Assembly (NCBI GenBank): GCA_021821085.1
Contig: JAKACV010000008.1
Span: 1-64,000 of the forward strand
DNA length: 64,000 nucleotides
Direction: 5' to 3'
Origin: Bacillota bacterium
Lineage (GTDB): Bacteria > Bacillota > Bacilli > Alicyclobacillales > SLC66
Position numbers and translations under genes: made by a program. The notes beneath the pieces are model-generated. The model did not search any database. It saw only the letters and a list, made by a program, of their open reading frames with translations, and was not told where the DNA came from. Below are positions 1-5,407 of this stretch, piece after piece (position 1 is the stretch's first letter; each line of letters opens with the position of its first letter).

Positions 1-847
1 CAGCCGCCACATCGCGCCTCTGAAGGGCTTCGGAGGTCAACCGGGCCTGTTCCACAGAAGCAGTAAACACGATGCTCTTGCGGTCGCTGGCGTGCGTCAA
101 GATGGCGTCTGCAACAGCTTCGGCAACACCCGCTTCGAGCAGTGCATCGGCCAACTCATCCTCGTTGAAATCGCCTCCGCGTCCGACATGCACGTTCGAC
201 AGATCGACACGAAGCGGAACCGCGCGCGGCACAATATCCACCAAGTAGGTATCCTGGATTGCCTGTAACAGTGGCAATTGATAGGCGATGGACTGGAACA
301 CGTTATCTAACCCTATGCCGTCTGCCCGCTCCACCGTGGCCGTGAGACCGAGCAGGGGAGGGCCGTCGGGTCGGAAGCATCCGAGATGCTCCAGCAGAGA
401 ACGATACGACGGCGCGCTTGCATGATGGCTTTCATCGACCACGACGAAATCGAAGTCTTGTAGATCACGTCGACGTTTTTCATGAATGGCCGATTGGACA
501 CTGACGAAAACCACATCGGCGTTCGGCTCATGTCGATCCGCCATTACCACGCCTTGCATAGCTTTCGGCCATACGTTTGAGAAGGCTTCTGCCGGTTGCG
601 TGATCAATTCCTGTCGATGCGCAATCCAGGCCGTTCGCCCTCCCATCCGCCGCGCGATATGCGCCCCGGTGAAGGTTTTCCCTGCGCCTGTCGGCAGGTT
701 GATGATGGAGCGGCGGACACCTTGCGAGAGGCCCGACAAAAAGGCTTCTGCCGCTTCCGTTTGATAGGGCCGGAGTGCTATACTGGCCCTGTCGCTTTTG
801 CTCAGACCGCCCGTCTCCAGCGGGCGGTTTCGTGTTGCCGTGGTCAT
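1..847 (-). CDS. Superfamily 2 DEAD/DEAH-box helicase, C-terminus cut by window edge
   Basis: About 282 N-terminal residues are visible and the frame stays open to base 1, so the gene is partial. A Q-like RPYQTEA segment near residue 28 precedes Walker A (LPTGAGKT, about residues 49-56), a DESH Walker B box and a LTAT motif III. That order fits restriction-type or phage DEAD/DEAH helicases that unwind nucleic acid with ATP. The ATG at 847 overlaps the TGA of the upstream gene as ATGA, so translation is probably coupled in a leftward replication operon. The first codons contain a GC-rich hairpin that reads as a terminator on the opposite strand (806-830). The role in element replication is inferred from the primase neighbours. 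Confidence 0.85.
   Translation of the reverse strand, partial: MTTATRNRPLETGGLSKSDRASIALRPYQTEAAEAFLSGLSQGVRRSIINLPTGAGKTFTGAHIARRMGGRTAWIAHRQELITQPAEAFSNVWPKAMQGVVMADRHEPNADVVFVSVQSAIHEKRRRDLQDFDFVVVDESHHASAPSYRSLLEHLGCFRPDGPPLLGLTATVERADGIGLDNVFQSIAYQLPLLQAIQDTYLVDIVPRAVPLRVDLSNVHVGRGGDFNEDELADALLEAGVAEAVADAILTHASDRKSIVFTASVEQARLTSEALQRRDVAA
776..832 (+). ncRNA. Candidate short antisense RNA over the helicase gene start
   Basis: On the plus strand an extended -10 element (TG-C-TATACT, 776-784) is followed 22 bases later by a perfect 7-bp GC hairpin (arms 807-813 and 821-827) and TTT. A transcript starting near 791 would be about 40 nt long and complementary to the first codons of the leftward helicase gene. 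No good -35 is seen at standard spacing; TTGATA at 761-766 is only 12 bases away. A similar arrangement occurs at 3678-3740. This is inferred from sequence only. Confidence 0.35.
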
Positions 848-1239
848 GCGTCACTTCCTCTCTTCGTTTTCAGCCAACTCATAAATTCACACGCTTTCCT
901 CACTGCCGTTTTATAATCCGGCCCCTTGTACAGTGTTTTATACGTTTGCAAGCGGCCATCCTCATGCCAGTGAATGCGGTATGTGTGCCACTCGTTGGTG
1001 TCCTGCTCAATGATTACAGAGGAAAACTTACCAATCTGCGCCTGAGCCTCATTCGTCTCCCACGTCGTGAATCCGGACTGGCGGAGTTTGGTATATTCCG
1101 GTGTATCAGCGAAGGAACGCACAACGGGCAATTCGACAACGGCGGACGCAGCAGGAGAACCATCTTTTGTCGTTGTCGATGGCCGCCAGTTCCGCCAGTA
1201 CTCCATCTCTTGCTCGACCGTTATCCCATCGGGGATCAT
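844..1239 (-). CDS. Hypothetical protein of the mobile element replication operon
   Basis: About 131 residues with no family I recognise. The frame opens further upstream, at 1308, but the ATG at 1239 has a strong GGGGGTGAGG ribosome site a few bases ahead, and the extra upstream codons would run through a GTGGCAC repeat cluster, so I start it here. The protein is soluble, rich in charged and aromatic residues towards the C-terminus (a YRIHWHEDGR segment), and has no signal or membrane helix. Its TGA overlaps the ATG of the helicase gene. The position between a DUF3987 protein and a helicase suggests an accessory replication role; this is inference. Confidence 0.6.
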   Translation of the reverse strand: MIPDGITVEQEMEYWRNWRPSTTTKDGSPAASAVVELPVVRSFADTPEYTKLRQSGFTTWETNEAQAQIGKFSSVIIEQDTNEWHTYRIHWHEDGRLQTYKTLYKGPDYKTAVRKACEFMSWLKTKRGSDA

Positions 1240-1252
1240 TCGCCTCACCCCC

Positions 1253-1374
1253 ACAATAGAAGTGGCACTTGTGGCACCTCGTGGCACTGTAATTTCTGAT
1301 TCACGCATTTCATTCGAAAAACCCTGTCACAGCGCGGGTTACAATAGAAGTGGCACTTGTGGCACTTGTGGCAC
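1253..1374. repeat. Two clusters of iteron-like GTGGCAC repeats
   Basis: Copy A (1253-1287) and copy B (1341-1374) share the opening ACAATAGAAGTGGCACTTG and each carry three GTGGCAC units at a 9-10 base pitch (1262, 1271, 1281; 1350, 1359, 1368). Copy B runs up to the stop codon of the DUF3987 gene and copy A covers the upstream region of the next gene. Evenly phased direct repeats beside primase and helicase genes resemble iterons of a replication origin or a binding array for an element-encoded regulator. Confidence 0.65.
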
Positions 1375-2937
1375 CTATAGGTGTACATTTTCACGCGTTG
1401 CCGGGTTGATTCTGAGCACGTATACATCGCGTCCATTCTCGGAAATTTGCGGCTCGATCCTCACCCATCCCAATTGGCTTAACGAGTCAATTGCCTTAAC
1501 CACCGCTTGTTTCGTGGTTAACTCGCCCCAATGCTTGCGGTACAGGTCACGCAACGGCATTCTATCAATTACGTCGCCAACTTTTATGCGTTCCGCCAGC
1601 GCATGAGTTGAACCTGTACCATCATCAAGTTCACTGCGATATACCTTTCGAGCATGGGCGTCCAGGTACGCGCACCAACTTGCCGCCCGTTTTGCCGCGT
1701 CCAGAGAAACATCCCCTACCTCACCATCCGCGAGATGTAACACCAATGCGAGCGAGGGGAGAAGACTTCGATATTTGCTCACGTGCGCTTCGTATGCCGG
1801 GGTGTCCGCGAGTTGTCCGCTGCGTAGGCGTCGTTCGAGCGATGATCGCCACTCATCGTGCATTATTTGCGCCTCTGGTGAAAAGTGCAGATAAGGGAGA
1901 GTGTCAGCATCGTGCTCATCACGGTTAACCCGGAATGCATCAACGCCCACGGTTGCCAGGTCTTCAAGGCACGCGAATGCTTTTTGTCTCGCATTATGGT
2001 CCGGTCGCCCTGGAGACGTATACGCTGGAACATCATCTGGCCAAACGAGCAATTGAAAACGTGAGAGCAATCCGTCAGCGCCGCCATCCGATACCGCCTC
2101 ATCAATGTAGCGCCTAAGTTTTGCAGGTTGAATCCCGCCGATGATCGACAAACAGAGTGTTGGCACCCATAAGCTCCCACGCCCGATGCGATCCACGCTA
2201 TACCCCTCAGAACCGTTCCATGCATTAAGGAAAAATCCGCGATCTGTCTTGTGATTTTCTTGCTCCATACCGGCTAACCATCCAGCGAGTTCGTCGCGCA
2301 CCATCAAAAGTCCTTGAGTATTTCGAATTAGTAGGTCCGCGATTTTTTCCTGGGTGGCGTCTCCGATAATGTAGCGCTTGGGTCCGGCAGGGAGTTCGTT
2401 CAAATCACGCATCAAATCAGTCATCGAAATTTCAAGAGCACCTACGTCTTGTCCTTTTTTCGCGGCCTGTTGGATCGCCTGTTTGCATCCGGTAATGCGC
2501 GCCTGAAACGATTCCCGTTTTGCGGCGGTTTCCTCTGCTATCGCCTTCCACTTTTCGCGCTCCTGCGCCTCAATTCTGCTCAGTGGCTTCAGTCCACTGG
2601 CTACGGCGTGCGATTTCATCAGGCCCGGTCGTCCTACAATGGCACCGTAGAGATTGCAAATTACGCTATAATCATTGAGCCGCGAGGGACGGATGCTGAC
2701 TCGCCGAGCGAGAATCGCAGCCAGACTGACCATCGCGGGCACGGCCATCATCTCCAACGGGAGCGATGCGCGCATAGCAACATCTACCAACCACGCGCGC
2801 AATCGGCGGGGCAATAGACTCTCCTCCAAATGCGGGGTTGCAAACATCTGCGTCTTGTCCGGCAACGCTTGGGGAGCGGGCCATGTTTTTTCAACGGCGG
2901 CCAAGAGGTCAGTGATATTAGTAACTTTTGCGACCAT
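1375..2937 (-). CDS. DUF3987 family protein (phage/plasmid primase-helicase partner)
   Basis: About 520 residues resembling DUF3987 proteins, which sit next to primase-polymerases in prophages and integrative elements. Visible landmarks are the N-terminal PLEMMAVPAMVSLAA segment, an IVGRPGLMKS region in place of a classical Walker A, DELAGWLAGM and GGADGLLSRFQLLVWPD. The ATG at 2937 is chosen because it overlaps the TGA of the upstream primase gene (ATGA) and is preceded by a purine-rich GGGGCGAGGGTG site; a longer in-frame start at 2991 lacks these. Its last codons touch the GTGGCAC repeats. A role in replicating the element is inferred. Confidence 0.8.
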   Translation of the reverse strand: MVAKVTNITDLLAAVEKTWPAPQALPDKTQMFATPHLEESLLPRRLRAWLVDVAMRASLPLEMMAVPAMVSLAAILARRVSIRPSRLNDYSVICNLYGAIVGRPGLMKSHAVASGLKPLSRIEAQEREKWKAIAEETAAKRESFQARITGCKQAIQQAAKKGQDVGALEISMTDLMRDLNELPAGPKRYIIGDATQEKIADLLIRNTQGLLMVRDELAGWLAGMEQENHKTDRGFFLNAWNGSEGYSVDRIGRGSLWVPTLCLSIIGGIQPAKLRRYIDEAVSDGGADGLLSRFQLLVWPDDVPAYTSPGRPDHNARQKAFACLEDLATVGVDAFRVNRDEHDADTLPYLHFSPEAQIMHDEWRSSLERRLRSGQLADTPAYEAHVSKYRSLLPSLALVLHLADGEVGDVSLDAAKRAASWCAYLDAHARKVYRSELDDGTGSTHALAERIKVGDVIDRMPLRDLYRKHWGELTTKQAVVKAIDSLSQLGWVRIEPQISENGRDVYVLRINPATRENVHL

Positions 2938-3746
2938 CACCCTCGCCCCCTTTGACGACGCCGGAGTTCCCGCGTGGCGATAGAGTGCCATACTTTGGCT
3001 ATCTGCTTATCGCTTAGCGGGGGGTCACAACACGAACGACCATAGGCGTAAACGAGTGCCTCTGCCAAGTGTTCATCAACACGTCTGGCGAGCAAGTGAC
3101 CGCACACACTTGTTAAGGACACGTCTCGCATACCATATGAAGCACCGTCTGCAAGCTTAGCGATGTCGGTTTTATGCGACTGTGCCGTATCGTAAAGCCA
3201 TTCAGGGGCGGATGGTAACGCCAGATCCCGCAAACTGTGTCCTGGTGCCCACTCGTAACGTTTCCCCGACGGGTGGACACTCGGGGGAGCGATCACATAG
3301 CCGCCTTGCGCGCGGATGTCAACTCCGGGTAGAATACCGACCCGCGATGCAAGGGGGCGTGCTGGATCGGCAGCCGTGTAGATGTGCCAGCCCTGAGACG
3401 TACGCACCTGCGGACCGCGGGGGAGGCCCATTTTCTTGATTATTTTCACGGCTTCGTCACTGTCAATGTCGATTACCACGACGCCAGATGGTCCGCACGC
3501 TATGCCGATATTCGCGTTTGGCCATCGCGACAACCATGCGTGGATGGTGTCTGGGTCTGTCGTCGCATCTTTCAACCCGTGTTCTGTCAGCGGTTCTTTT
3601 CCGCGCACGCGGCAGGGAAAAACGTGGTACACACTTGCGGCCAGAGCTAATGCAGACTCGCACATGTTGGCCCTGTGTGATATACTTACACCATCTAAAA
3701 GTTTCGAATCGGCGACTCCTTGGGGGTCGTCTTTTTTTGCGTTCAT
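2937..3746 (-). CDS. Bifunctional primase-polymerase (Prim-Pol) with primase C-terminal domain
   Basis: 269 residues. The N-terminal half is an archaeo-eukaryotic-type Prim-Pol: a basic RGKEPLTEHGLKDAT segment, then GPSGVVVIDIDSD containing the metal-binding D-x-D, then SQGWHIY and a GGYVIAPPSVHPSG block. The C-terminal 70 residues resemble the PriCT-1 helical domain. It would make primers, and possibly extend them, for element replication. ATG 3746 has AGGAGG eight bases upstream. A terminator-like hairpin of opposite polarity lies across its first ten codons (3712-3738). It starts the tightly overlapping leftward operon. Confidence 0.88.
   Translation of the reverse strand: MNAKKDDPQGVADSKLLDGVSISHRANMCESALALAASVYHVFPCRVRGKEPLTEHGLKDATTDPDTIHAWLSRWPNANIGIACGPSGVVVIDIDSDEAVKIIKKMGLPRGPQVRTSQGWHIYTAADPARPLASRVGILPGVDIRAQGGYVIAPPSVHPSGKRYEWAPGHSLRDLALPSAPEWLYDTAQSHKTDIAKLADGASYGMRDVSLTSVCGHLLARRVDEHLAEALVYAYGRSCCDPPLSDKQIAKVWHSIATRELRRRQRGRG
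3678..3740 (+). ncRNA. Candidate short antisense RNA over the primase gene start
   Basis: An extended -10 (TG-A-TATACT, 3678-3686) on the plus strand is followed by an 8-bp hairpin with a 3-base loop (arms 3712-3719 and 3723-3730) and seven T residues (3732-3738), a good intrinsic terminator. A transcript of about 45-50 nt would be antisense to the primase start codon region. No gene on the plus strand would otherwise need a terminator here. A TGGCCCTGT 9-mer near this promoter also lies beside the promoter at 776-784. Confidence 0.42.
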
Positions 3747-3758
3747 GCCGCATGCCTC

Positions 3759-3968
3759 CTATTCCGCCCGCTGCGTCTCTGCCGCCCGGCGCAACGCCTC
3801 GTCCACCTCGGTCACGTCGTACCTTACCAGTCGCCCGATCCGGCGCGCCGGGATAATGCCCTGCCTCGTCCAGCGCCGCACCGACTCGTCCGATACACCG
3901 TACATCCTACCAATCTCCACTGCGGATACGCGCGGGCACAGTGTCGTTCTCGGTGTGTCATTAATCAT
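3759..3968 (-). CDS. Excisionase-like helix-turn-helix DNA-binding protein
   Basis: 69 residues with a MerR/excisionase-type helix-turn-helix: VSAVEIGRMYGVSDESVRRW followed by a wing (RIGRLVRYDVTEVDEAL). Such proteins bind attachment-site or promoter DNA and either direct excision or regulate the replication operon. ATG 3968 has GAGGTGA six bases upstream. It lies just upstream of the primase gene in the same direction and is divergent from the gene at 4050, a typical spot for an element control protein. The HTH fold is clear; excisionase rather than repressor function is a guess. Confidence 0.8.
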   Translation of the reverse strand: MINDTPRTTLCPRVSAVEIGRMYGVSDESVRRWTRQGIIPARRIGRLVRYDVTEVDEALRRAAETQRAE

Positions 3969-3981
3969 CTGCCTTCACCTC

Positions 3982-4011
3982 TTGGGTATATCATCGCATG
4001 TGGTGTATACT
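3982..4011 (+). promoter_or_regulatory. Probable promoter for the rightward gene at 4050
   Basis: TTGGGT (3982-3987) and TATACT (4006-4011) are separated by 18 bases in the divergent region between the HTH gene and the 353-residue gene. The palindromic GTATAC inside the -10 means a leftward promoter may overlap it. Confidence 0.5.
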
Positions 4012-4049
4012 AGAGCCAAACACAAAAGCGGTGAGAAAGCGGTGAGATT

Positions 4050-5111
4050 GTGGCGACAGACAGGAGTTTGCGGGAGACAAGTATAGACTTGGGAGCAGAA
4101 CCGTGGATACTCGCTGAATTGATATGGATGCGCGGGGGACTTGCGTGCGATCGGCACACGCGCTTGCTGTGTGCCGGAAGTATCAGCTATTTCAGTCGGG
4201 ACAGTTTCGGGCGGATTGTAACACTTCATTCTCCCTATCACGACGATGTGGAACGGTACGCCGTCACGAAACCGCTAGAAAACTTTCGCGCTCTCGCGAA
4301 CGCAGGGTCGTTTTACCAATACACATGTGAGTGGCACAGTGACGGGTATCCCTATATACGCGCGGTCGGCGACGAAGACGCGGCGTTGCTCCAGTGCTGC
4401 CAAGACTACGGATTGCCGACGGATGCGCGGGACTTCGGTACGCCACTTGGCGTGAATAGCATCCTTATACCAGAACCTGCACGACCGGACTGGATCGATG
4501 AACCGGAAGAGAGACGCCCCCAGTTTGTAGGACACGCTGAACCGGGTCTACGAACGACAGCCTTTTTCGCACACATTTGTCAGACATTCGTCGATCTAAA
4601 GAACCGCAAGGACTGGAAGTCGCTGAAGTCGTATTACCAAGACACGCCGGACGGCATGGGCACGTTTCTGTTAGACCATCCGCCTTACATCGGCGCATTC
4701 TCGCTGCCCCAAAGAGAACATGGCGAACGTGATAGTGCGTATGACGCAAGGAAGCTTTCAGCAGGCGTGACAGTCACAATTCTTGAGATTTGCGGATGGT
4801 ATCTGAAGGATTCTCTGCGCGTTGTCGTGCAGGGAGGCTTAACCGAATCTGACGCGCCACGGCTCGTGCAGGCGGCGGCGGGGCTGCGGAGCTATCTCTT
4901 TTTGCAGTTCGCCAATGCTATGAACCTAACCGCCGTGACGCGCTCGTCGACAAAGGTTTGTGAGCGATGCGGAGAGGACTTTATCCCACGCCTTGACCAT
5001 CCGCGCGAACGAACATGTCGTGAGTGCCAGTACAAACGGGACCGCGAGAAGCACAAGGCGAAGTATCACGCAGAAAAGAAAGAGGCAGCGCATCGGACTA
5101 CTATGGTCTAG
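4050..5111 (+). CDS. Unknown element protein with C-terminal zinc ribbon
   Basis: 353 residues, family not recognised. Start GTG 4050 follows a GGTGAG site; an AAAGCGGTGAG direct repeat precedes it. The main body is soluble and globular. The C-terminus has a clear zinc-ribbon motif, CERCGEDF then 13 residues and CREC, followed by a strongly basic tail, suggesting nucleic-acid binding. It is the only rightward gene in the visible part of the element and is the gene closest to the tRNA-Ala attachment site. Cargo, defence or transfer roles are all possible; the sequence alone does not decide. Confidence 0.75.
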   Translation: MATDRSLRETSIDLGAEPWILAELIWMRGGLACDRHTRLLCAGSISYFSRDSFGRIVTLHSPYHDDVERYAVTKPLENFRALANAGSFYQYTCEWHSDGYPYIRAVGDEDAALLQCCQDYGLPTDARDFGTPLGVNSILIPEPARPDWIDEPEERRPQFVGHAEPGLRTTAFFAHICQTFVDLKNRKDWKSLKSYYQDTPDGMGTFLLDHPPYIGAFSLPQREHGERDSAYDARKLSAGVTVTILEICGWYLKDSLRVVVQGGLTESDAPRLVQAAAGLRSYLFLQFANAMNLTAVTRSSTKVCERCGEDFIPRLDHPRERTCRECQYKRDREKHKAKYHAEKKEAAHRTTMV

Positions 5112-5260
5112 TCTCGGGTCTAGTTTTCTCGGTCGGTGTCCTGTGTCGGGTTAAGCGTACACATGTTCTGTGTGTGGACAATCCGGGCCAATTCGGGGTT
5201 TATAGCCGTTTCATCGTGCGTGGGTATGCGTCCTATGTTATGATGAATGTCATTTTTTGA
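5112..5260. other. Terminal 150 bases of the mobile element, no gene seen
   Basis: The stretch between the last element gene and the tRNA remnant has no convincing open frame. It holds a GTCTAGT direct repeat at its start and then AT-richer sequence running into the attachment site. Integrase arm-binding sites would be expected here, but I cannot identify them. Confidence 0.4.
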
Positions 5261-5307
5261 GCCTTGCACGCAGGGGGTCAGCGGTTCGAGTCCGCTTATC
5301 TCCACCA
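5261..5307 (+). tRNA. 3' part of a tRNA-Ala(TGC) gene: attachment-site copy (partial)
   Basis: The bases match the anticodon loop (CTTGCAC, anticodon TGC), the 3' anticodon stem (GCAGG), variable loop, T arm (GCGGTTCGAGTCCGC) and acceptor strand TATCTCC plus CCA of an alanine tRNA. No D arm or 5' acceptor strand (expected GGAGATA) precedes it. Homology stops at the anticodon stem, the usual crossover point for tRNA-targeting integrases. It is therefore an att duplication, and the intact tRNA-Ala should lie at the other end of the element. Confidence 0.85.
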
Positions 5308-5383
5308 AATGGTACAAAGCTAAGATAGCGCGTCGGTTTATGTGTATAGACAAGCATAAGAAGTATACATTATACATTGAAAT

Positions 5384-5407
5384 CTGAGCTTTTGCTCAGG
5401 TTTTTTT
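5384..5407 (+). terminator. Intrinsic terminator downstream of the tRNA remnant
   Basis: CTGAGC-TTTT-GCTCAG followed by G and seven T residues. It probably ended the original tRNA-Ala transcript before the element inserted. Confidence 0.85.

Follow-up and report, generated by a model that had tools for sequence, protein, structure and literature searches.

A predicted antisense RNA gene within the coding start of a mobile-element primase in Alicyclobacillales

Small plasmids are the classical case of antisense control over replication proteins: their counter-transcribed RNAs (ctRNAs), such as CopA of R1 and RNAIII of pIP501, are short antisense RNAs that act against replication protein expression, are located in the leader of the rep mRNA, and have conserved recognition loops. 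A cis-antisense RNA, asRNA1, is also found in the replication module of the Synechocystis plasmid pSYSA, a primase-helicase replicon; the ssr7036/asRNA1 locus adjoins the primase-helicase gene cyRepA1, and asRNA1 has been linked to copy number (PMC9978351). In temperate phage lambda, the short, terminated OOP RNA (promoter pO) is transcribed counter to the direction of the early replication operon and affects both replication and lysogeny (PMC3985674, PMC12197685).

Here, we describe promoter and terminator signals for a short RNA antisense to the start of a primase gene, located in a 64,000-nucleotide stretch of DNA from a Bacillota bacterium (contig JAKACV010000008.1, positions 1 to 64,000; hereafter, the window). 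As with plasmid ctRNAs, the predicted RNA would be directed against expression of a replication protein, and feedback on copy number would be expected to follow. Unlike ctRNAs, the unit lies inside the coding region (codons 3-24) rather than antisense to the mRNA leader, and its hairpin and loop sequences turn over, with loop and arm sequences differing between lineages where ctRNAs have a conserved recognition loop. Only two variants, from Sporosarcina quadrami (L137) and from G319 (L045), would cover the ribosome-binding site; in these Sporosarcina-type primases, the promoter box is placed within the first ten codons, and termination would occur upstream of the Shine-Dalgarno sequence. The likeness to pSYSA asRNA1 is one of description, and that RNA differs in that it overlaps a small upstream gene, ssr7036, instead of the primase gene and in that it is known from experiment to be highly expressed and is tied to RNase E cleavage (PMC9978351). 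OOP, in turn, has cII mRNA as its antisense target rather than the first codons of a replication gene (PMC3985674, PMC12197685).

The unit occupies positions 3676-3738 of the + strand, antisense to approximately codons 3-24 of a gene for a Prim-Pol/PriCT_1 primase (2937-3746, minus strand). This gene, the presumed target, has its start codon at 3744-3746, with the Shine-Dalgarno sequence AGGAGG, and its codons 1-27 form a non-conserved tail that contains the unit. The unit begins with an extended -10 sequence of the TRTGnTATAAT type, TGTGATATACT (3676-3686), that is conserved in ten primase lineages; upstream of it, no -35 element was recognizable. From the position of the -10, transcription is predicted to start at about 3692-3694. 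A 24-nt body (3687-3710), which includes the segment TTTCGAATC (3702-3710), is followed by a terminator hairpin, GGCGACTCC-TTG-GGGGTCGTC (3711-3731; nine pairs, six of them GC; loop TTG; -13.9 kcal/mol), and by a T tract, TTTTTTT (3732-3738), which on the sense strand is a run of seven A after the start codon. This terminator was the first listed of 15 terminator-like sites in the first 12 kb of the window. The place of TTTCGAATC is taken by a similar segment in several relatives (TTCGGAT in L003, L004, L018, and L080; TTCGGAC in L012), and some members lack it. The original prediction of an antisense promoter-terminator unit at a replication gene start was borne out at the primase, with the signals present as claimed and conserved in relatives. 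Judged by these sequence signals and their conservation, the locus has a promoter and a terminator on the strand opposite an overlapping target, as expected of a cis-encoded antisense RNA, and a candidate antisense unit at the primase is supported.

Rfam covariance models run against window positions 1-5400 gave zero matches at E values up to 5. On the sense strand, positions 3732-3738 read GC-A-AAA-AAA right after the primase start codon, a possible slippery site, and an alternative open frame of 96 aa (3463-3753) is present there. A programmed frameshift at this site was considered; the run of seven A is absent from other members.

Taken alone, one such site might have arisen by chance. The primases of G008 (70% identical) and G057 (62% identical) align to the window primase only from codon 28 on, and the design recurs with different letters in their N-terminal codons, namely TGTGATATAAT ... 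CGGCCACCTTGGCGAGGGTGGCCG-TTTTGTT in G008 and TGTGGTACACT ... GGCCGCGTTGATGGACGCGGCT-TTTTGTT in G057. The unit also occurs in seven more divergent primase lineages (L012, L014/L030, L015, L018, L023, L029, and L080). Since it is found at the same place in both close relatives and in these seven lineages, the evidence is strongly against chance. In the ten independent Alicyclobacillales primases, the layout of the unit is kept while its letters are not: the hairpin arms of each lineage pair with each other at 7/7 positions versus an average of 3.6/7 when arms are swapped between lineages, a T-rich stretch follows the hairpin on the antisense side only, and in 10/10 the hairpin begins between +13 and +17 of the ORF (mean 15.4, sd 1.3). 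Neither the body over its full length nor any recognition loop is kept constant. Because MAFFT alignments of the units misaligned the hairpins, pairs were counted manually, without a covariance model. The original prediction had named freely changing arms as grounds against it, and it survives this check, since the arms differ between relatives and yet pair; however, the relatives were found in part by a scanner that requires a -10 and a terminator, so that pairing alone is circular in the scanner-found relatives. Free of this circularity are the controls described below, the fixed +13 to +17 position, and the two nearest relatives, which were read directly.

The codons of the -10 box always end in A (ATA or GTA, then NCA), as compared to 19% and 29% in the rest of these genes, figures that are partly circular and illustrative only since the box was itself a search criterion. 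The box falls in one reading frame across members and encodes the peptide (S/I)-(I/V)-(S/P/T/A)-(Q/H) in most of them, and this recurrent peptide may reflect some protein constraint on the box. Several related primases of the same order, including long primase fusions, lack the unit, indicating that it is not essential to the family.

Scanning of 560 kb of DNA (the loci plus the window, both strands) for a -10 followed by a terminator gave 17 matches, 15 of which were antisense to a primase or helicase start, some of the matches representing a double box at a single site or copies that are nearly identical. Read backwards, this 560 kb gave 1 match, and 1.47 Mb of mostly host DNA gave 7, with 0 at an ORF start; the unit-like matches at L315, L325, L330, L335, L336, L338, and L350 fell at no recognized ORF start. 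In primases from many phyla, the extended -10 box was present on the antisense strand of the 120 nt before the Prim-Pol domain in 14/204 genes versus 0-1 occurrences in each of nine control windows. Box and terminator co-occur (Fisher P = 3e-8); among the 185 primases that lack the box, 18 have an antisense terminator of some kind in this region as well. When genome and viral contigs were first scanned at the protein level for the window primase, no matches were returned. A pattern search of 59 genomes with TTTCGGAT gave 11 matches, among which the full unit was found only at the two G008 primases; two near-identical non-primase matches (L100 and L101) were rejected, having a weaker hairpin and no matching target ORF.

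It had also been proposed that the same design recurs at a nearby helicase and that the two units form a paired primase-helicase control. The N-terminal part of a DEAD/ResIII helicase gene lies at 1-847 on the minus strand, the rest of the gene being on contig C89. Antisense to its start is a unit (776-830, + strand) with an extended -10, TGCTATACT (776-784), and a hairpin (805-829), common to L032/L282, that is followed by a poor T tract, TCGTG. We regard this helicase-start antisense unit as probable on its sequence signals. Its counterpart in G008 has a changed loop and body and nearly the same arms. It was found only in this 89%-identical relative; the other helicase loci checked were without it, apart from two versions located in the 5' leaders of the DEAD helicases of G033 (L287) and Alicyclobacillus kakegawensis (G027, L295). 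The L295 leader unit persists despite a stop codon in the would-be tail frame. Both leader units (L287 position 2314 and L295 position 2304) share the sequence CGAATC in the body with the primase unit of the window.

The 9-mer TGGCCCTGT, which had been cited as a link between the two sites, is indeed present at both. However, at the primase it lies upstream of the -10 (3667-3675), whereas at the helicase it starts within the -10 and extends beyond it (784-792); in the nearest relative, G008, neither site has it. Because of this difference in position and this absence, we rejected it as a link and treat it as chance. Co-occurrence of the unit with Prim-Pol plus DUF3987 elements was seen in several members. 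The matched pair is therefore only partly supported: the primase unit stands and the helicase unit is probable, but the latter is confined to one close relative and the two leader versions, its T tract is poor, and the 9-mer is not conserved. A matched two-gene switch is, on these signals, a weak proposal.

The window begins at a contig start (G000:C40) with the terminal 5.3 kb of a mobile element. On the minus strand, the primase gene is preceded by a gene for an HTH_17 regulator (excisionase/AlpA-like, by domain match; 3759-3968) and followed by genes for a DUF3987 protein (by domain match; 1375-2991) and a small ORF (844-1308). A 19-base att core, GCCTTGCACGCAGGGGGTC (5261-5279, + strand), is common to this site and to an intact tRNA-Ala(TGC) on C89, and the end of C89 overlaps the window start by 126 bases; together, these put the size of the element at about 15 kb. 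The element corresponds to window positions 1-5279 plus G000:C89 1-9860 (L120), with the contig break inside the helicase gene, and the remainder of the helicase on C89 is 98% identical to the G008 protein. C89 also encodes a topoisomerase IB, a type I restriction-modification pair, and an integrase beside the intact tRNA-Ala(TGC). Phage satellites or PICI-like islands would be expected to have a length of ~15 kb, an integrase adjoining the att tRNA, a replication module, and no structural genes; seen here were the integrase, the tRNA-Ala att core, the type I restriction-modification genes, and, among those ORFs that were scanned, a sub-threshold match to a small-terminase-like protein on C89. 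From its sequence, the element looks like a satellite or integrative island in tRNA-Ala. Adjoining the att site is a gene for a 353-aa protein (4050-5111, + strand) with only sub-threshold, zinc-ribbon-like matches at its C-terminus, in place of which the G008 element has a 437-aa protein (L032 6744-8057).

A related arrangement occurs in an NPL-UPA2 metagenome bin (L132; QLUB01000127.1), in which the antisense strand of a primase start has a full TTGACA-18-TATACT promoter together with a strong terminator (Tx8). A quick tree built from 196 primases requires at least 7 changes in the presence of the unit, indicating that the trait was gained, lost, or transferred repeatedly; members are located in prophage-like regions, in islands, and, in Alicyclobacillus curvatus, on a plasmid of 57 kb. 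A broader reading, which we offer tentatively and regard as somewhat doubtful, is that the unit is a transferable antisense "throttle" cassette, i.e., an RNA gene of ~60 bp that occupies, in frame, the 5' end of primase genes from several separate clades and of some DEAD helicase genes in phages, plasmids, and islands of Bacillota, with a disposable N-terminal tail as its coding shadow and a hairpin at the edge of the ribosome footprint.

We interpret the primase site as encoding a short cis-antisense RNA that would lower primase expression, a prediction from sequence signals to which we assign a probability of roughly 0.6. RNA polymerase would start at ~3693 and stop in the T tract, producing an RNA of about 45-50 nt (roughly 3693-3738; 45-60 nt on a broader estimate) that would pair with about codons 3-18 of the primase mRNA, beside the ribosome start site. 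Such pairing would block translation initiation and/or create an RNase III substrate; pairing within the first five codons can repress translation (PMC9486967). As element copies rise, and hence copies of the RNA gene, primase output would fall, and replication of the element is probably throttled by this RNA. The narrow placement of the hairpin start (+13 to +17) is probably due to the need for the sense mRNA to carry a mirror hairpin just outside the footprint of the initiating ribosome. Since the unit shares its bases with the coding start, codons 1-27 would be a translated tail that mainly records the RNA gene.

The same signals could be read in other ways. Antisense transcription itself might matter, with a convergent promoter interfering with the primase operon and the terminator shielding the upstream regulator gene, much as lambda pO faces pR and lowers its transcription (PMC3985674). 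Conservation of the promoter and terminator, and not of the body and hairpin sequences, would agree with interference of this kind, which we nonetheless consider unlikely, as the hairpin keeps a set distance from the start codon and several members have the TTCGGAT/TTCGAAT segment, which together suggest that the RNA, or its place on the mRNA, matters. It is also conceivable, although quite improbable, that the unit belongs to a replication origin, where a short transcript would open the DNA or prime near the primase gene. Lambda replication is steered by transcription near its origin (PMC3985674), the pSYSA mRNA of the asRNA-covered locus is thought to prime replication (PMC9978351), and the unit is part of the replication module in phage-like elements, in an island, and in a plasmid. 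The predicted RNA, however, ends at a strong terminator within ~45 nt, and the helicase-start and leader variants do not suggest a single origin.

Trans-acting sRNAs are commonly built as a seed plus a terminator, and the TTCGGAT segment common to several members could be a single-stranded seed for another host or phage mRNA, with the primase overlap incidental. We think this very improbable, given that the segment is missing in L014/L030, L015, L023, and L029, that no convincing free-standing, terminator-bearing copies were found away from primases in the 59 genomes, and that the unit overlaps the primase start far too regularly for this to be incidental. That the signals reflect coincidence in the coding sequence, or a feature at the level of the protein or mRNA, with the box as a codon motif or operator and the hairpin acting in the sense mRNA, could be argued from the shared frame and similar short peptide of the box and from the mirror hairpin that the sense mRNA necessarily has. 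Against this stand the backwards-read, host-DNA, and nine-window controls, the co-occurrence of box and terminator, the restriction of the T tract to the antisense side, the A-ending box codons (a partly circular point), and the leader unit that persists with a stop codon in frame (L295), all of which make it the reading in which we place the least belief.

The literature searched, which included few subscription journals, describes no antisense RNA embedded in a phage or satellite primase coding sequence, a weak negative, and held nothing relevant on antisense RNA with PICI primases or in Alicyclobacillus. As far as this search shows, placement in the coding start, sequence turnover with kept geometry, and spread over several primase clades are apparently undescribed. 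If real, a cis-antisense RNA gene at the primase start would explain the non-conserved N-terminal tails of these primases, would allow replication control in mobile elements to be predicted simply, and would serve as a clear system for studying how the same bases are shared between an RNA gene and the start of a protein-coding gene.
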